Positions 8,312 through 24,859 of a stretch of DNA of 32,563 nt are shown one piece after another. The notes below the pieces were generated by a model, which was given only the letters and a program-made list of their open reading frames with translations, was not told the DNA's origin and did no database searches. Source of the DNA: Fusobacterium perfoetens (GTDB taxonomy: Bacteria > Fusobacteriota > Fusobacteriia > Fusobacteriales > Fusobacteriaceae); the NCBI RefSeq assembly GCF_021531475.1, contig NZ_JADYTX010000026.1, forward strand, positions 1 to 32,563, given 5' to 3'. Each line of letters opens with the position of its first letter. The stretch's first letter is position 1. Made by a program: the position numbers and the translations under genes.

Positions 8312-8820
8312 TTTTTTTTAGTGGCTTATTTTTCTAAATTTTATATCACATCATTTCATTTAGTCTCATATTTTATATAATTTTAAAACTTTTAATTTGA
8401 TTATTTTTTTATAAAATTGCCATTTTTATTACTTAATTAAACGATATTCATTTTTTAGATAACATATATTTATTTTTTATATTTTTTATTTTTTTATTCT
8501 AAAATTTATGATTTTTTATAAAAATATATTAAAATATAAAATTTTTTGTTTTTTCACATAATAAAGTTTTTTTACAATCTAACTTTTTTAATATTTTTAT
8601 TTTTTATCATTATATTTTATTCTATCCAAACTATAATTTTAAATTTTTCACTCTATTTTAAAATGTCATTTATTTTTTTTATAATTAATATCATCTTTAT
8701 TTATACTAAAGGACTATTTTTTTAATATAGTAAAAATATTTTTTTCTTTTATAATTCAAATAAAAATATAATTTAATAATAAATTTCCTACATTTTAATA
8801 AAAAAAATTAAAAATTTTTC
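8312..8820. other. AT-rich intergenic stretch without recognisable genes
   Basis: About 500 bases between the divergent DUF3798 operon and the liv leader consist almost only of A and T with long T runs. No open frame with a ribosome binding site, no tRNA and no clear hairpin with GC pairs can be seen. It could hold upstream promoter elements or curved DNA, but nothing specific can be supported. Confidence 0.6.
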
Positions 8821-8849
8821 TTGCTTTTTTGTTTATTTTGTTTTATACT
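8821..8849 (+). promoter_or_regulatory. Promoter of the liv leader
   Basis: TTGCTT (8821-8826), a 17-base spacer and TATACT (8844-8849) give a good SigA-type promoter. The start site would be near 8856, about 35 bases before the small ORF. No comparable promoter is visible directly before livJ, so this is the likely promoter of the liv operon. Confidence 0.65.
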
Positions 8850-8891
8850 TACCTCAACAAATAAAAAACGAATTTAAAAAGGAGGAAGAAT

Positions 8892-8981
8892 ATGTCTTTA
8901 ATACTTAGCATAATATTTGTCATATGTATAATACTGATTATAATAAAAAATACAATCAAATATGCAGATGTTTATTGTTAG
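8892..8981 (+). CDS. 29-aa Ile/Leu/Val-rich small protein, candidate liv leader peptide
   Basis: A 30-codon ORF (29 residues plus TAG) with a very good ribosome binding site: GGAGG at 8881-8885, six bases before the ATG, behind a good promoter. It begins MSLILSIIFV and ends YADVYC. Ten residues are Ile, three Leu and two Val, so 15 of 29 are branched-chain; eight of the ten Ile codons are ATA, whereas livJ just downstream uses almost only ATT and ATC. The next features are a terminator (9113-9141) and the branched-chain amino acid importer genes, which suggests a leader peptide read by the ribosome to control transcription. The alternative is a small single-span membrane protein or the remnant of a transporter N-terminus, since such peptides are also Ile-rich. 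Confidence 0.6.
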   Translation: MSLILSIIFVICIILIIIKNTIKYADVYC

Positions 8982-9031
8982 GGAAAATTTCGGTCATATT
9001 CTGTCGCTTCTATTTAAAATAAATTTTGTAT

Positions 9032-9071
9032 AGTTTAAACTAAAATTTTAAAGGATTTTTTAGATTAAACT
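9032..9071 (+). promoter_or_regulatory. Leader hairpin between the small ORF and the liv terminator
   Basis: Arms of 14 bases (9032-9045 and 9058-9071) pair at 13 positions with one A-A mismatch around a 12-base loop. It sits between the leader ORF and the terminator. It is AT-only in the stem apart from two G-C pairs, so its stability is modest. It may be part of the leader's alternative folding. Confidence 0.35.
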
Positions 9072-9112
9072 TTAATTTTCAGGAATGTGATTTTTAATAT
9101 TAGAAGATTTTG

Positions 9113-9141
9113 GGATAACCTAACAAGGTTGTCCTTTTTTT
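9113..9141 (+). terminator. Rho-independent terminator upstream of livJ (possible attenuator)
   Basis: GGATAACCT (9113-9121) pairs with AGGTTGTCC (9126-9134; one U-G pair) around a four-base loop and is followed by seven Ts. It lies 51 bases before the livJ ATG, with no convincing promoter in between, so transcription must pass it to reach the liv genes. This is the position expected for an attenuator. Confidence 0.8.
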
Positions 9142-9191
9142 ATAAAAAAATTTTTAATTGAAATTTTAAATATATTAAGGGAGGGATTTTT

Positions 9192-10337
9192 ATGAAAAAA
9201 CTAAATACTTTTTTAATGGGTGCTTCTTTATTTCTTGTAGCTTGTGGGGGAACAAAAGAAAATTCTACTGATTCTAACGTTATGAAAGTTGGAGGAATTG
9301 GACCTTTAACAGGACCTCTTGCTATCTATGGTGTAAGTTCTACAAATGGTTCTAAACTTGCTATGGAAGAAATCAATAAAAACGGTGGAATTCTTGGAAA
9401 ACAAGTTGAATACATTGTTCTTGATGAGAAAGGAGACTCTACAGAGGCTGTTACTGCTTACAATAGATTAGTTGATGAAGGAGTTGTAGCTCTTATTGGA
9501 GATATCACTTCTAAACCATCACTTGCTGTTGCTGAAGTTGCTGCCCAAGATAATCTTCCTATGATTACTCCAACAGGAACTCAATTTAATATTACTGAAG
9601 CTGGAGCAAATGTATTCCGTGTATGTTTTACTGACCCTTATCAAGGTGTCGTTCTTGCAAACTTTGCTAAAAATAACTTAAATGCAAAAACTGTAGCTGT
9701 TGTAGTTAATAACTCAAGTGACTATTCTGATGGAGTTGCAAAGGCATTTGTTGAACAAGCTGAAAAACTTGGTTTAAAAGTTGTAGCCAAAGAGGGATAT
9801 TCTGATGGAGATAAAGATTTCAGAGCTCAACTTACAAAAATTCTTCCAACTAATCCTGATGTTCTTGTAGTCCCAGATTATTATGAACAAGTAGCTTTAA
9901 TTACTGTTCAAGCTAGAGAAGTTGGACTAAAATCTACTTTCATCGGTCCTGATGGTTGGGACGGAGTATCAAAAACTCTTGACTCTAGTGCTTATGGAGC
10001 TGTAGAAAATTCATATTTCACTAACCATTATTCATTACAAGATACTTCTCCAAAAGTTCAAAATTTCTTAAAAGCATATAGAGAAACTTATAATGAAGAT
10101 CCTTCTGCTTTCTCTGCTTTATCATATGATGCTGCTTATATGTTAAAAGCTGCAATGGAAAAAGCTGGTTCTACTGATAAACAAGCTGTAGTGGATGCTC
10201 TTAAAACTCTTGATTATGATGGTGTAACAGGACATTTAACATTCGATAAAAAAAATAACCCTGTTAAAGCTGTTACAGTTTTAAAAATTGTAAATGGTGA
10301 ATACACATTTGACTCTGTTGTGGAACCTACTAAATAG
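9192..10337 (+). CDS. livJ: Branched-chain amino acid ABC transporter substrate-binding lipoprotein
   Basis: A 381-residue binding protein of the LivJ/LivK type (periplasmic-binding fold type I, Peripla_BP_6). The signal peptide ends in a lipobox LVAC with Cys18 as the lipidated residue, so the protein is membrane-anchored. Family blocks include KVGGIGPLTGPLAIYG near residue 32, ALIGDITSKPSLAVA, PMITPTGTQ, and FSALSYDAAYMLKAAMEKAG near residue 310. It captures Leu, Ile and Val, or related amino acids, for LivHMGF. GGGAGGG precedes the ATG. It is the first gene of the operon, and a hairpin separates it from livH. The exact ligand is inferred from family and context. Confidence 0.92.
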   Translation: MKKLNTFLMGASLFLVACGGTKENSTDSNVMKVGGIGPLTGPLAIYGVSSTNGSKLAMEEINKNGGILGKQVEYIVLDEKGDSTEAVTAYNRLVDEGVVALIGDITSKPSLAVAEVAAQDNLPMITPTGTQFNITEAGANVFRVCFTDPYQGVVLANFAKNNLNAKTVAVVVNNSSDYSDGVAKAFVEQAEKLGLKVVAKEGYSDGDKDFRAQLTKILPTNPDVLVVPDYYEQVALITVQAREVGLKSTFIGPDGWDGVSKTLDSSAYGAVENSYFTNHYSLQDTSPKVQNFLKAYRETYNEDPSAFSALSYDAAYMLKAAMEKAGSTDKQAVVDALKTLDYDGVTGHLTFDKKNNPVKAVTVLKIVNGEYTFDSVVEPTK

Positions 10338-10426: not shown

Positions 10427-11311
10427 ATGGAATTTTTACTTCAAATTATAAATGGTTTACAGATAGGAAGTATCTATGCTCTTATATCACTTGGATATAC
10501 AATGGTTTATGGTATTGCTCAATTGATTAACTTTGCTCACGGAGATATTATTATGGTAGGAGCATATGTTTCTCTTTTCAGCATTCCAGCTTTTGCAAGA
10601 ATGGGATTACCCGTATGGCTTACTATGATACCAGCTATTTTTATTTGTGTTCTTTTAGGTATGCTTACAGAAAGAATAGCTTATAGACCTCTTAGAAATT
10701 CTCCAAGAATTTCCAATCTTATTACAGCCATAGGAGTAAGTCTATTCTTAGAAAATCTTTTTATGAAATTATTTACTCCAAATACAAGACCTTTCCCAAA
10801 AGTTTTCACTCAACCTCCTTTGACTTTTGGAGGACTTCATTTAAACTTTGGAACTGTGGTTACTATTGCAGTAACACTTGTTCTTTCTATGGGATTACAA
10901 TATTTTATGAAAAAAACAAAATATGGTAAAGCGATGCTTGCTACGAGCGAGGATTATGGAGCAGCAAAACTTGTTGGAATAAATGTAGATCACACTATCC
11001 AACTTACATTTGCAATAGGAAGTGGACTTGCTGCAGTCGCTGCTGTTCTTTATGTAGCTTCTTATCCACAAGTTCAACCTCTTATGGGGTCTATGCCAGG
11101 AATTAAGGCATTTATTGCTGCTGTTCTTGGAGGAATTGGAATTCTTCCAGGAGCTGTATTAGGAGGATTTATTCTTGGAATAGTTGAAAGTCTTACAAGG
11201 GCATATCTTTCTTCTCAACTTGCAGATGCTTTTGTTTTTGCAATATTAATTATTGTACTTTTAGTAAAACCTACTGGTATTTTAGGTAAAAATATAAGAG
11301 AAAAAGTATAG
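10427..11311 (+). CDS. livH: Branched-chain amino acid ABC transporter permease LivH
   Basis: A 294-residue inner-membrane permease with about eight hydrophobic segments. The N-terminal block LISLGYTMVYGIAQLINFAHGDIIMVGAY is diagnostic for LivH. The cytoplasmic ATPase-contact loop lies around KYGKAMLATSEDYGAAKLVGINVD (near residue 165-190), and the C-terminus has VKPTGILGK. It pairs with LivM to form the translocation channel. AAGGAG lies just before the ATG, and the gap to livM is 15 bases. Confidence 0.93.
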   Translation: MEFLLQIINGLQIGSIYALISLGYTMVYGIAQLINFAHGDIIMVGAYVSLFSIPAFARMGLPVWLTMIPAIFICVLLGMLTERIAYRPLRNSPRISNLITAIGVSLFLENLFMKLFTPNTRPFPKVFTQPPLTFGGLHLNFGTVVTIAVTLVLSMGLQYFMKKTKYGKAMLATSEDYGAAKLVGINVDHTIQLTFAIGSGLAAVAAVLYVASYPQVQPLMGSMPGIKAFIAAVLGGIGILPGAVLGGFILGIVESLTRAYLSSQLADAFVFAILIIVLLVKPTGILGKNIREKV

Positions 11312-11326
11312 GAGGAGTTTTAAATT

Positions 11327-12304
11327 ATGGATAAATATAAAAAATTAAGTTATATATTTACTCTTGTACTGGTTTTAGTACTTTATGCAGTTATTGGTGG
11401 ACTTATTGGTCTAGGAATAATCTCAAGATATCAGACAGGTATATTAATTATCATTTGTATCAATATTATTTTAGCTGTTAGTCTTAATATTACAGTTGGT
11501 TGTCTTGGACAGATTACAATTGGTCATGCTGGTTTTATGTCTGTGGGAGCTTACGCTGCTGCACTTTTCTCAAAATCAGGAATTATTGACGGAATTCCTG
11601 GATATATTTTAGCACTTATTATTGGAGGAATAGTTGCTGGTATAATTGGAGTTATCATAGGTATTCCAGCTTTAAGACTTAACGGAGATTATCTTGCAAT
11701 AATTACATTAGCCTTTGGAGAAATTATAAGAGTTTTAATAGAATATTTTAAATTTACTGGTGGAGCTCAAGGACTTCGTGGAATTCCACGCACAAGTAGC
11801 AGTTTTACGATAATTTATTTTGTGACAATTATTTCTGTTGTGATAATGTTTTCTCTTATGACTAGCCGCCATGGACGTGCTGTTTTAGCTATCCGTGATG
11901 ATGAAATAGCTAGTGGAGCATCTGGGGTAAATACTACTTATTACAAAACATTTGCATTTACAGTATCAGCTATCTTTGCAGGTGTTGCTGGGGCAGTTTA
12001 TGCTCATCATTTAGGAATTTTAGGGGCAAAACAATTTGACTTCAATTACTCAATCAACATTCTTACAATGGTTGTTCTTGGAGGAATGGGAAGTTTTACA
12101 GGTTCTATTCTTTCTGCTATTGCCCTTACTATTCTACCAGAAATTCTTCGTGGATTTTCTGATTATCGTATGATTATTTATTCATTACTTTTAATTCTAA
12201 CTATGATATTCCGTCCAACTGGTTTATTTGGACGTAAGGAATTTCAAATCACACCAATTATCAGAAAATTTGTAAAGAGCAAGGAGGAGAAAAAAGATGA
12301 ATAG
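11327..12304 (+). CDS. livM: Branched-chain amino acid ABC transporter permease LivM
   Basis: A 325-residue inner-membrane permease. The conserved LivM block GQITIGHAGFMSVGAYAAAL lies near residue 65, the ATPase-contact loop with RHGRAVLAIRDDEIASGASG near residue 190, and FRPTGLFGRKEF near the C-terminus before a basic tail. It forms the channel with LivH. GGAGG precedes the ATG, and the 3' end overlaps livG by 8 bases, so LivM and LivG translation are coupled. Confidence 0.93.
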   Translation: MDKYKKLSYIFTLVLVLVLYAVIGGLIGLGIISRYQTGILIIICINIILAVSLNITVGCLGQITIGHAGFMSVGAYAAALFSKSGIIDGIPGYILALIIGGIVAGIIGVIIGIPALRLNGDYLAIITLAFGEIIRVLIEYFKFTGGAQGLRGIPRTSSSFTIIYFVTIISVVIMFSLMTSRHGRAVLAIRDDEIASGASGVNTTYYKTFAFTVSAIFAGVAGAVYAHHLGILGAKQFDFNYSINILTMVVLGGMGSFTGSILSAIALTILPEILRGFSDYRMIIYSLLLILTMIFRPTGLFGRKEFQITPIIRKFVKSKEEKKDE

Positions 12305-13076
12305 CGATAAAGTAATACTTAGTGCAAAATACATCTCAATCACCTTTGGTGCATTAAAAGCTGTAACAGATTTTAATCTTGAAATAAAGGAAAATGAACT
12401 TGTTGGTCTTATTGGTCCAAACGGAGCTGGAAAAACGACTGTCTTTAATATTTTGACAGGAGTTTATTCTCCTACAAGTGGAAAATATCAGTTCAATGGA
12501 GAAAATATTACAAAAACTCCTACATACAATCTTGTAAAAAAAGGACTTGCTAGAACCTTTCAAAACATAAGACTTTTTAAATATCTATCTGTTCTTGATA
12601 ATGTTCTTGTAGCAAATAATTTTAATATGAAATATGGTATTTTAAGTGGTATTTTCCGTTTTCCAAATTATTGGAAAGAAGAAAATGAGGCAAAAGAAAA
12701 AGCAATGAAACTTTTAAAAATATTTGATCTTGATGGATATGCTGATACTGCAGCTGGAAATCTTCCATATGGAAAACAAAGAAAGCTTGAAATTGCCCGT
12801 GCTATGGCAACAAATCCAAAACTTCTTTTACTTGATGAACCTGCAGCTGGTATGAATCCCACTGAAACTGAAGAACTTATGAATACTATTCGTTTAATAA
12901 GAGATCGCTTTAATATTGCAATTCTTTTGATTGAACACGATATGAAACTTGTTCTTGGAATCTGTGAAAGATTGGTAGTTCTTGATCATGGAAATATTAT
13001 TGCATCTGGAAAGCCTGTAAATGTAATCAATGATCCTGCAGTTATTACAGCTTATCTAGGGCAAGAGGAGGAATAA
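12297..13076 (+). CDS. livG: Branched-chain amino acid ABC transporter ATP-binding protein LivG
   Basis: A 259-residue single-domain ABC ATPase. Walker A is GPNGAGKTT (about residues 40-48), the signature is LPYGKQRKLEIARAM with Pro-Tyr in place of the usual Ser-Gly, as often in LivG, and Walker B is LLLLDEPAAGMNP followed by the switch His in LIEHDM. The long insert between Walker A and the signature is typical of LivG. GGAGG inside the end of livM precedes the ATG. Confidence 0.94.
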   Translation: MNSDKVILSAKYISITFGALKAVTDFNLEIKENELVGLIGPNGAGKTTVFNILTGVYSPTSGKYQFNGENITKTPTYNLVKKGLARTFQNIRLFKYLSVLDNVLVANNFNMKYGILSGIFRFPNYWKEENEAKEKAMKLLKIFDLDGYADTAAGNLPYGKQRKLEIARAMATNPKLLLLDEPAAGMNPTETEELMNTIRLIRDRFNIAILLIEHDMKLVLGICERLVVLDHGNIIASGKPVNVINDPAVITAYLGQEEE

Positions 13077-13080
13077 TTTT

Positions 13081-13803
13081 ATGGAAAATAAAACAATGCT
13101 TGAAATAAAAGATTTACATGTTTATTATGATAATATTCACGCTCTTAAAGGTGTTTCTTTAAAAGTAAAAGAGGGAGAAATTGTTTCTCTTATCGGAGCT
13201 AATGGAGCTGGAAAAACTACAACTTTACAAACCATTTCTGGACTAATTTCTTCTAGAGAGGGAAAAATTGTTTTTCATGGAAAAGATATTACAAAAGAAA
13301 AGCCTCACTTAATATGTCAGGCTGGAATTGCACAAGTTCCAGAAGGAAGAAGAATTTTTACAAAATTAGCTGTTAAAGATAATTTAAAGTTGGGAGCATT
13401 TACAGTGAATGATACTCCTGAAAATCTTGAAAAGGACAGAGCAAAATTCTATAAAAATTTTCCTAGAATGTCTGAAAGAAAAAATCAGATGGCAGGTACA
13501 CTTTCTGGAGGAGAACAACAGATGCTTGCAATGGGTAGAGCTATTATGAGTAGACCAAAACTTCTTATTTTAGATGAGCCATCTATGGGACTTTCTCCTT
13601 TATTTGTTAAAGAAATATTCTCAGTAATCAAAAAATTAAGAGATGACGGAGTTACTATTCTGCTTGTTGAACAAAATGCAAAAATGGCTCTTTCCATAGC
13701 CGATTATGCTTATGTTATTGAAACTGGAAAGATCACTCTTGAGGGAAAAGCACAAGATTTATTAAATAATCCTGAAATTAAAAAAGCTTATCTTGGAGCT
13801 TAA
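13081..13803 (+). CDS. livF: Branched-chain amino acid ABC transporter ATP-binding protein LivF
   Basis: A 240-residue ABC ATPase with Walker A GANGAGKTTT (about residues 38-47), the LivF block VPEGRRIFTKLAVKDNL, signature LSGGEQQMLAMGRA, Walker B LLILDEPSMGLSP and LLVEQNA. It forms the ATPase heterodimer with LivG. It begins four bases after the livG stop and is the last gene of the operon, followed by a terminator shared with the opposing atp operon. Confidence 0.94.
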   Translation: MENKTMLEIKDLHVYYDNIHALKGVSLKVKEGEIVSLIGANGAGKTTTLQTISGLISSREGKIVFHGKDITKEKPHLICQAGIAQVPEGRRIFTKLAVKDNLKLGAFTVNDTPENLEKDRAKFYKNFPRMSERKNQMAGTLSGGEQQMLAMGRAIMSRPKLLILDEPSMGLSPLFVKEIFSVIKKLRDDGVTILLVEQNAKMALSIADYAYVIETGKITLEGKAQDLLNNPEIKKAYLGA

Positions 13804-22432: not shown

Positions 22433-24859
22433 ATGAAAAAAGTTTTAATTGTTGGTGGAGTTGCTGGTGGAGCTTCTACTGCCACTAGACTTAGAAGATT
22501 AAATGAAGATTTAGAAATAATTTTATTTGAAAAAGGACAACACGTTTCTTTTGCCAATTGTGGTTTACCATATCATATTGGTGGAGTAATTGAAAATAGA
22601 GAAAGTTTATTAGTTCAAACTCCTGAAAGTTTAAAAGAAAGATTTAATCTTGATATAAGAGTTAATAGTGAGGTTATCTCAGTAAATTCTCAAGAAAAAT
22701 CTGTAATGGTTAAAACTAAAAATGGAGAAGAGTACAAAGAATCTTTTGATTATCTTGTATTAGCTCCTGGAGCAAAACCTTTAGTTCCTCCTATTGATGG
22801 AATTGGCGGAAAAAATATCTATACTCTTAGAAATGTAACTGACCTTGATAAAATTATGGAAAAAATAAAATCTGTTAAAGAGGCTATTGTTATTGGTGGA
22901 GGATTTATCGGAGTAGAAGTTGCTGAAAATCTACAAGAGATAGGTATCACAACAACTCTTATAGAGGCTGCTCCTAATATATTAGCTCCTTTCGACAGCG
23001 AGATGTCAAATATTTTAGAGGCTCAGCTTGCAAACAACGGAATTAATCTACTAACAAATAATAAAGTTATAAAATTCCAAAATGAAGATGAAGAAGTTTT
23101 AGTTTCTCTTGAAAATGGAAATGTTATTAAAGGAGATATCGTAATTTTAGCTATTGGTGTTTCTCCTGATACAAAGTTTTTAAATAATTCTGGAATAAAT
23201 CTTGGAGAGAGAGGTCATATATTAGTAAATGAGCATCTTGAAACTAACATAAAAGATATTTACGCCCTTGGAGATGCTATCCTTGTAAAACATTTTGTAA
23301 CTGGTCAAGATGTGGCTATCGCCCTTGCTGGTCCTGCTAATAGACAAGGAAGAATTGTAGCTGGAAATATTTCTGGAAAAGATGAGATTTATAAAGGAAG
23401 TTTTGGAACTTCTATAATAAAAGTTTTTAATCTTACTGGAGGAGCTACTGGATTAAATGAAAGAAGTTTAAAATCTCTTGGTAAAAACTTTGAAAAAATC
23501 TATCTTCACCCTAATGACCACGCTGGATATTATCCAGGAGCTACACCTATCTCTATAAAACTTTTATATGAAAAAGAAACTAAAAAAGTTTTGGGAGCTC
23601 AAGCTGTTGGACTTAATGGTGTTGATAAATTTATAGATGTTATTGCAACGGTTCTTAAATTTAGAGGAACTATTGATGATTTGTCTGAACTTGATTTAGC
23701 TTATTCTCCACCTTATTCTTCTGCAAAATCTCCTGCAAATATGAGTGGATTTATTGGTCAAAATATAGAAGATGGTTTAATAGAGCAATCATATGTTGAA
23801 GATCTTGAAAATTTCGACAGAGAAAAACAAATAATTTTAGATGTAAGAGAAGAGCTTGAACTTATTGGCGGAAAATTTGAAAATTCTATAAATATTCCTC
23901 TTAGCCAATTAAGAAAAAGATTTTCTGAACTTCCAAAGGATAAAGAAATTTTAACTTATTGTGCTGTTGGGCTTAGAGGGTATATTGCTAGTAGATTTTT
24001 AATATCTAAAGGGTACAAAGTAAAAAATATTGCTGGTGGATTTAAAAGCAAATTATCTGAAATAAAAGTTTCAAAAAAAGAAATAAATAATGAAATAAAA
24101 AATGATAATAATACTCCCATTGATGAAAAAGATTATCTAAATCTTTCTGGACTTTCTTGCCCAGGACCACTTGTAAAAATAAAAAATAAAATCGACGAAC
24201 TTAACCAAGACGATATTTTAAAAGTAAAAGTTACTGATCCAGGATTTTATAACGATATTCAAAGTTGGGCTAAGGTTACAAAAAATAGATTGGTTGAACT
24301 TAAAAAACAAGATAAAACAATCTATGCTACTTTACAAAAAGGTTTGGGAAATGAAATAAATTCTAATAACAAAGAAAATAAAATTATTGAAACTAATGAT
24401 GCTATGACTATTGTAGTTTTTAGTGGAGAGCTAGACAAAGCTATCGCGGCATTTATTATTGCAAATGGAGCTTTAGCAATGGGAAAAAAAGTAACAATGT
24501 TCTTTACTTTCTGGGGATTATCAATCCTTAGAAAAAAATCTCTACCAAATAAATCAAGCTTAGAAAAAATGTTTGATATGATGCTTCCAAAAAATAGCAA
24601 AGGTTTACCTCTATCAAAAATGAACTTCTTCGGAATGGGATCTAAAATGATCAGAGATATAATGAATAGGAAAAATATTATGTCTCTTGAAGAACTTATG
24701 AAAAAAAGTATAGAAGATGGAGCTAACTTAGTGGCTTGTACTATGTCAATGGACGTTATGGGAATAAAAGAGGAAGAATTAGTTGATGGAATCTCTTTTG
24801 GTGGCGTAGGACAATATCTTGGTGAAGCTGACAAATCAAATAATAATCTGTTCATTTAA
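22433..24859 (+). CDS. CoA-disulfide reductase fused to rhodanese, TusA and DsrE-like domains
   Basis: An 808-residue multidomain enzyme. Residues 1-450 are an FAD/NAD(P)H disulfide reductase: FAD motif VGGVAGGAS (7-15), the single redox Cys43 in SFANCGLPYHIGG, and NAD motif VIGGGFIGVEVAE near 151-165. Next are a rhodanese domain (about 455-555) with active-site loop CAVGLRG, a TusA/SirA domain with CPGP near 575, and a DsrE-type domain (about 655-808) with Cys near 767 in VACTMSMD. The fusion links persulfide formation, relay and reduction in one chain and suggests reduction of polysulfide, CoA-persulfide or similar sulfur species in the cytoplasm. GGAGGG precedes the ATG. It is probably controlled by the divergent HxlR regulator. 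Confidence 0.92.
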   Translation: MKKVLIVGGVAGGASTATRLRRLNEDLEIILFEKGQHVSFANCGLPYHIGGVIENRESLLVQTPESLKERFNLDIRVNSEVISVNSQEKSVMVKTKNGEEYKESFDYLVLAPGAKPLVPPIDGIGGKNIYTLRNVTDLDKIMEKIKSVKEAIVIGGGFIGVEVAENLQEIGITTTLIEAAPNILAPFDSEMSNILEAQLANNGINLLTNNKVIKFQNEDEEVLVSLENGNVIKGDIVILAIGVSPDTKFLNNSGINLGERGHILVNEHLETNIKDIYALGDAILVKHFVTGQDVAIALAGPANRQGRIVAGNISGKDEIYKGSFGTSIIKVFNLTGGATGLNERSLKSLGKNFEKIYLHPNDHAGYYPGATPISIKLLYEKETKKVLGAQAVGLNGVDKFIDVIATVLKFRGTIDDLSELDLAYSPPYSSAKSPANMSGFIGQNIEDGLIEQSYVEDLENFDREKQIILDVREELELIGGKFENSINIPLSQLRKRFSELPKDKEILTYCAVGLRGYIASRFLISKGYKVKNIAGGFKSKLSEIKVSKKEINNEIKNDNNTPIDEKDYLNLSGLSCPGPLVKIKNKIDELNQDDILKVKVTDPGFYNDIQSWAKVTKNRLVELKKQDKTIYATLQKGLGNEINSNNKENKIIETNDAMTIVVFSGELDKAIAAFIIANGALAMGKKVTMFFTFWGLSILRKKSLPNKSSLEKMFDMMLPKNSKGLPLSKMNFFGMGSKMIRDIMNRKNIMSLEELMKKSIEDGANLVACTMSMDVMGIKEEELVDGISFGGVGQYLGEADKSNNNLFI

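Follow-up and report, generated by a model that had tools for sequence, protein, structure and literature searches.

Classical ribosome-mediated attenuation of transcription is best known from Proteobacteria and Actinobacteria, and the trp, leu, ilvGMEDA and his attenuators of the enterobacteria are its standard examples. In the E. coli trp operon, the leader RNA also pairs back on its own ribosome binding site (RBS) and thereby limits translation of the leader. Amino acids and peptides are the main nutrients of Fusobacteriota, and how these bacteria sense branched-chain amino acids (BCAAs) is therefore a basic physiological question. BCAA leaders have been described in Actinobacteria, where two reports (PMC11857589, PMC11109978) cover the Corynebacterium ilvBNC attenuator and the ilvB-II uORF motif and a third (PMC1262725) treats the ilvB and leuS leaders, and in Staphylococcus aureus, where a leucine-rich attenuator peptide of the ilv-leu operon is combined with control by CodY (PMC5794164). 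Papers that treat Fusobacteria among other bacteria (PMC11109978, PMC8632094, PMC7247131, PMC4833913, PMC11005410) describe no such attenuator in the passages searched, and keyword searches of the main text of open-access papers returned no earlier report of one in Fusobacteriota.

In this study, we analysed a stretch of 32,563 nucleotides from Fusobacterium perfoetens (hereafter the window), in which a preliminary description had proposed ribosome-mediated attenuation ahead of a BCAA importer operon. That interpretation gains support from homologous leaders in relatives, from an antiterminator and from a competing hairpin. We consider it highly probable that the locus is a classical ribosome-mediated attenuator that senses the supply of charged Ile-tRNA and controls the livJ-livHMGF operon, with Leu and Val probably contributing to the signal.

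Results

The features of the locus are collected in Table 1. Between the promoter and the structural gene lies a short ORF, predicted to be translated from a good RBS and conserved in the family described below; both the RBS and the length of the ORF were confirmed in the sequence as they had been reported. The promoter, which had been called good, deserves the word in part: its spacing and -10 element are conserved, with TTGnnn-N16-18-TAnnnT upstream of 51 of 53 family leaders and a 17-nt spacer in 44, but its -35 hexamer agrees with the consensus at only three of six positions, which is why a consensus scan did not list it.

The leader peptide contains 10 Ile (eight of them ATA), three Leu and two Val, so that a recount again gives 15 of 29 residues as Ile, Leu or Val. 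Across the family these three amino acids take up 55% of leader codons versus 27% in genes, and the leaders are thus enriched for the amino acids of the operons that they precede, with runs of Leu before leuA. The contrast in ATA usage pointed out earlier holds as a count, since eight of the 10 leader Ile codons are ATA as against none of 13 in livJ, but it is weaker than it appears because ATA is not rare in the genome, where it makes up 50% of Ile codons (26 window genes). Two rare codons are enriched in the leaders, CTC (19.5% of Leu codons versus 0.2% in genes) and GTC (50% of Val codons versus 1.4%), figures whose weight is lowered by the common descent of the leaders.

An intrinsic terminator, a hairpin of 10 pairs followed by six T, lies between the leader ORF and the first gene. 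It is the only one in the 1.2-kb stretch scanned, in which 0.1 would be expected, and its distance from the leader stop, earlier put at about 130 bases, measures 130 nt. In the window, about 50 nt separate the terminator from livJ; in a close relative the terminator ends about 30 nt before the livJ start codon, which leaves no room for a separate livJ promoter. The names of the livHMGF-like genes were inferred from sequence and gene order, and these genes are presumably co-transcribed with livJ.

Table 1. Elements of the leader and of the operon behind it, in window coordinates
Feature	Position	Strand	Basis
Leader promoter (-35 TTGCTT 8821-8826, -10 TATACT 8844-8849, 17-nt spacer)	8821..8849	+	Sequence
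Transcription start, predicted	~8856	+	From leader promoter
Shine-Dalgarno AGGAGG for leader ORF	8880..8885	+	Sequence
Helix 0 strand AGAATATG, end of leader RBS and start codon	8887..8894	+	Pairs with 8995-9002
Leader ORF, 29 codons and TAG, MSLILSIIFVICIILIIIKNTIKYADVYC	8892..8981	+	Homologs found by profile search
Region 1 CTTAGCATAAT, leader codons 5-8	8904..8914	+	Pairs with 8976-8982 absent ribosome; P(1:2)=0.96
Control codons ATA ATA TTT GTC ATA TGT ATA ATA CTG ATT ATA ATA	8910..8945	+	Sequence
Region 2 TTATTGTTAGG, overlaps leader stop codon	8972..8982	+	Folding; three reading frames in family
Antiterminator 5' half TTGTTAGG, within region 2	8975..8982	+	Pairs with 9119-9126
Element 2' CATATTCT, partner of leader RBS and start	8995..9002	+	Extends 1:2 hairpin, predicted to close leader translation start
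Region 3 CCTAACAA, terminator 5' arm and loop, antiterminator 3' half	9119..9126	+	P(2:3)=0.84; covariation
Intrinsic terminator (3:4), stem-loop 9112-9135 and U-tract 9136-9141	9112..9141	+	Terminator scan; folding P(3:4)=0.98 with ribosome at stop
livJ, BCAA ABC transporter substrate-binding protein, first controlled gene	9192..10337	+	NF011933 8e-55, PF13458 1.5e-70
livHMGF-like permease/ATPase genes (10427-11311, 11327-12304, 12297-13076, 13081-13803)	10427..13803	+	ORF list, order

Elsewhere in the window, a PatB/MalY-like aminotransferase on the minus strand (1439-2619) falls into two ORFs (1439-2059 and 2137-2619), which points to a frameshifted pseudogene or to an error in the assembly. 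On the plus strand, 22433-24859 encodes an 808-aa protein that, from its translation read by eye, is apparently a CoA-disulfide reductase with rhodanese-, TusA- and DsrE-like parts joined to it.

No convincing antiterminator had been seen in the preliminary description. One is now apparent, in which TTGTTAGG pairs with CCTAACAA and the pairing covaries across the family; the antiterminator (2:3) and the terminator (3:4, region 4 being the 3' arm) are mutually exclusive. A protector hairpin, 1:2, competes with 2:3 and fills out the classical four-region design, with region 1 placed where a ribosome stalled at the control codons would cover it. The window helices weigh against the reading, 1:2 being bulged with only seven contiguous pairs and 2:3 having only 8 bp across the 130 nt that separate region 2 from the terminator.

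Computation of alternative folds reproduced the switch, both in the window and in the 44 aligned members. When region 1 of the window was masked as by a ribosome at the Ile codons, and RNA polymerase placed directly beyond region 3, P(2:3) was 0.84; with no ribosome, P(1:2) was 0.96 and P(2:3) was 0; and with a ribosome on the stop codon, P(3:4) was 0.98. Over the 44 members, mean P(2:3) was 0.86 with region 1 masked versus 0.08 with the leader free, and mean P(1:2) with the leader free was 0.78. Equilibrium folding of the full-length window transcript favours the terminator, and the antiterminator must therefore win kinetically, as it does in known attenuators.

About 60 loci (53 compiled and seven more read) in five genera of Fusobacteriaceae make up the family to which the leader belongs, and the recurrence of the leader with conserved parts at so many loci places the feature far beyond chance. 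Used as a protein query, the 29-residue peptide recovered copies in its own genome (contig C60) and two in a sister genome; the first copies aligned have in common the promoter, the leader start, a ATAATATTTGTCATATGT block, TGTTAGG where the leader ends and, within the terminator, CCTRRCA. Pattern searches with two mismatches returned many chance matches in these AT-rich genomes, and profiles were therefore used. With a first profile (R1), about 43 matches reached E<1e-5 in genera g1, that of the window, and g13, and a wider profile (R2) added or confirmed members in g8, g11 and g12. Most matches from an exact-pattern scan of named genomes were due to chance: one of 17 re-scored by R1 was clearly real, a member in Fusobacterium mortiferum An814 (L189), and the next best (L206, E=4e-5) is partial. 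Weak profile matches that fell in coding sequence or lacked a terminator were rejected (L115, L116, L123, L125, L127, L128, L217, L220, L221 and L225-L228). The ORF is thus conserved in relatives together with its RBS, promoter and terminator, mostly ahead of BCAA genes. The livJ upstream regions examined in other Fusobacteriaceae genera contain no leader; a livJ gene therefore does not by itself entail the element.

Covariation was measured on an anchor alignment of 44 members, with 33 distinct rows and the offsets of some rows set by hand; MAFFT leaves region 1 out of register. Helix 2:3 is paired in 95.5% of cells, and helix 1:2, of 11 bp over the 33 distinct rows, in 86.5%. In shuffle tests on the composite alignment, which kinship among the sequences inflates, two-sided changes occurred in seven cells of 2:3 versus 1.2+/-0.9 shuffled and, at six of the 11 pairs, in 10 cells of 1:2 versus 3.0+/-1.4, levels that 0 of 500 shuffles reached in either case. 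When partners were permuted, the observed Watson-Crick pairs (273 versus 253+/-3.7 for 1:2; 175 versus 163.5+/-2.1 for 2:3) were reached in 0 of 20,000 permutations for each helix. The two halves change together, with CTTAACATAAT/ATTATGTTAGG, CTTAATATAAT/ATTATATTAGG, GCTAACGTAAT/ATTACGTTAGG and CTAACATTT/AAATGTTAG among the 1:2 variants and GTTAGG/CCTAAC, ATTAGG/CCTAAT, GCTAAG/CTTGGC and GTTAAG/CTTAAC among those of 2:3. Divergent members retain 2:3 in other letters (AGTTATCTGTTG/CGACAGATAACT before ilvD; TTCTAAG/CTTAGAA), at a combined Fisher value of 3e-9 for members that are not fully independent; region 1 is not evident in five of the divergent members (L112, L119, L120, L126, L215).

The GTTAGG of region 2 occurs in all three reading frames, in 31 (frame 0), 4 and 9 members, and is therefore conserved as RNA and not as peptide. 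A further helix, 0:2', joins the leader RBS and start to a stretch that begins 6-19 nt past region 2 in most members. Its letters change from AGAATATG/CATATTCT in the window to GGTTTGAAGAATG/CATTCTTCAAATC and GAGTTCAG/CTGAACTT elsewhere, and pairing scores 16.6 for a member's own partner versus 12.7+/-0.5 for exchanged partners (permutation, p=5e-5); 0:2' covaries across the family, as 1:2 and 2:3 do.

Family leaders precede livJ, ilvE (identified by NF009897, 3e-152), ilvD, ilvB, leuA followed by leuC, oppA/M20 peptidase genes and transporter genes. Family searches named among the downstream genes an OppA-type binding protein, an M20 amidohydrolase, a lactate-permease-like transporter, a MATE gene, a BASS-family transporter with a glycerol-dehydrogenase-like gene behind it, and a YheO-like regulator ahead of a 2-oxoacid:acceptor oxidoreductase subunit. 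Most of the downstream genes serve BCAA supply; the MATE and lactate-permease-like targets have no obvious link to BCAAs. The MATE target belongs to a second copy in the window's genome (L026/L124, G000 contig C60), which points away from a BrnQ-like transporter gene and has a small ORF between its terminator and the MATE gene.

Control codons change with the target. They are rich in Ile before livJ, ilvE, ilvD and oppA, and become Leu runs before leuA (L218, L222 and L224, the last reading MILTNILSINLLLLLLLLLLPLGCKQLNRL...) and before one livJ paralog (L114, L122); regions 1, 2 and 3 are present in these leuA leaders in sequences of their own (CTAATATC, GATATTGG, CTGATATTA). Codons that change while the RNA parts stay constant are predicted by codon sensing and not by a conserved membrane peptide or by a peptide that acts as a sensor in the ribosomal tunnel. 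In the three leuA leaders, all from genus g12, a near-identical second terminator-like hairpin (e.g. GGCAGCTATAATTATAGCTGC) follows about 40-60 nt downstream, as if the terminator had been duplicated.

Two further kinds of leader depart from the Ile-rich type. The livJ2 leaders of g13 (L159-L161, with L162 a variant; MYSANICWTTVYGLSLSLNNLSQFSYTLLKC) contain only 25-29% Ile, Leu or Val; L159-L162 have the same regions 1, 2 and 3 and the terminator, with a conserved N-I-C-W-T-T block and CTC Leu codons. A Leu- and Met-rich leader (L216, G005 contig C6; MTVSFMLLNLMMILMLLMLLLSS...) precedes a 395-aa membrane protein that has no NCBIfam match at E<1e-30, and is possibly a Leu or Met attenuator.

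Discussion

Sequence and comparison provide the parts of a switch, their conservation, the covariation of helices 1:2, 2:3 and 0:2' and the alternation that folding predicts. From these we infer the role of the ribosome, the direction of control and the amino acid sensed, the last from the control codons. In the proposed mechanism, a ribosome would start on the leader while RNA polymerase moves on. When charged Ile-tRNA is plentiful, the ribosome would reach the stop codon inside region 2 and hide that region, so that 3:4 forms and transcription stops before livJ. When it is scarce, the ribosome would stall on the Ile codons after region 1, covering region 1; region 2 would then be free to capture region 3, no terminator would form and livJ would be transcribed. 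With no ribosome on the leader, region 1 would take region 2, leaving the terminator as the default.

Helix 0:2' would extend the 1:2 hairpin and shut the leader RBS after the pairing of regions 1 and 2, so that each transcript would probably be read by only one or a few leader ribosomes. The same helix may matter for another part of the family. In many members the leader stop lies 30-70 nt beyond region 2, so a terminating ribosome would leave region 2 uncovered and 1:2, together with 0:2', must act; in these members the hairpin would re-form behind the ribosome.

An arrest peptide, as in TnaC and the Erm leaders, would operate the same RNA switch downstream through a nascent I-I-F-V-I-C segment that senses a metabolite or antibiotic in the exit tunnel. 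The near invariance of ATAATATTTGTCATATGT in many members, one of them before the MATE efflux gene (L026), is what such a peptide would predict, but shared ancestry accounts for an invariant block in dispersed copies, and the block is wholly replaced by Leu runs or other Ile-rich strings in L114, L122, L112, L117 and L218. These members precede functionally similar genes, and what stands in place of the block fits the amino acid under regulation, as with a Leu run before leuA; we regard an arrest peptide as very unlikely.

The preliminary description had named an Ile-rich membrane micropeptide as its main alternative, a stand-alone product with its own transcript and terminator, livJ then having a separate promoter. 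The peptide is hydrophobic and its I-I-F-V-I-C block is well conserved. Against a micropeptide stand the end of the leader, conserved as RNA with GTTAGG in three frames, the livJ2 leaders, which with 25-29% Ile, Leu or Val have the same RNA parts and are not membrane-like, the short gap before livJ (about 50 nt in the window and 30 nt in the relative) and the lack of any Pfam match for the leader peptide; a stand-alone membrane protein is on these grounds extremely improbable.

A ligand- or tRNA-binding riboregulator (a T-box or riboswitch) with an incidental ORF would fit a long structured 5' UTR and terminator before amino acid genes, but has a negligible chance of being correct, given that the compiled members keep an ORF with its start, that the RBS itself pairs in helix 0:2', that Rfam scans of 8700-9300, run with the gathering score and again with E relaxed to 10, returned nothing meaningful, that none of the covariance models for amino acid operon leaders in Rfam (Leu, His, Thr and ilv leaders) matched the window, and that the T-box (RF00230), with no match in the window or in G000, was not found in g1 and g13 genomes except G006 and G073. 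Among the 61 family genomes, T-box matches above cut-off were confined to L208 (G006) and L207 (G073, an incomplete genome), and the T-box was rejected as the BCAA control of g1 and g13, not being found outside these two.

Beyond the single locus, codon-sensing attenuation may have spread as a unit. An ancestral cassette of promoter, leader and attenuator would have been copied across the Fusobacteriaceae, its control codons re-specified from Ile to Leu and its RBS lock admitting a single ribosome, to give an RNA-based regulon of uptake, transamination, synthesis, oxidation and peptide use. As a joint reading this is tentative, with a chance that we would place a little short of even. If it is true, the RBS lock would be a functional attenuator element displayed at the scale of a family. 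The set of leaders itself suggests that classical attenuation serves as a multi-operon control system in Fusobacteriota. The roughly 60 natural variants, in which control codons and helices change independently, offer direct tests of what determines the amino acid specificity of an attenuator and of whether leader self-sequestration belongs to attenuation in general.

Altogether, a match to no Rfam model and to no description found in the literature suggests a known type of mechanism in a new family and a new phylum, with a regulon-wide spread. Like the enterobacterial trp, leu, ilvGMEDA and his attenuators, the Fusobacteriaceae leaders combine an ORF with control codons, competing 1:2, 2:3 and 3:4 helices and a terminator ahead of amino acid genes. 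They differ in phylum and sequence, in having region 2 within the ORF or at its end, about 60-140 nt from the terminator, in the recurrence of one leader sequence family before many operons of the same genome, and in targets that include transport and peptide-use genes. With the leaders of Corynebacterium and other Actinobacteria they share a BCAA-rich ORF, a terminator, a complementary antiterminator and control of BCAA genes, whereas those systems belong to another phylum and serve biosynthetic or synthetase genes, and the window is without an Rfam match. The S. aureus ilv-leu operon likewise has a BCAA-rich leader before a BCAA operon and responds to a Leu signal, to which the Leu-run leaders L218, L222 and L224 may be compared; it is that of a Firmicute and works with CodY, whereas the leaders described here form a multi-operon set in Fusobacteriaceae. 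Finally, pairing of the leader RBS recalls the self-sequestration of the E. coli trp leader, and in the Fusobacteriaceae this pairing, helix 0:2', is widespread and covaries across the family.
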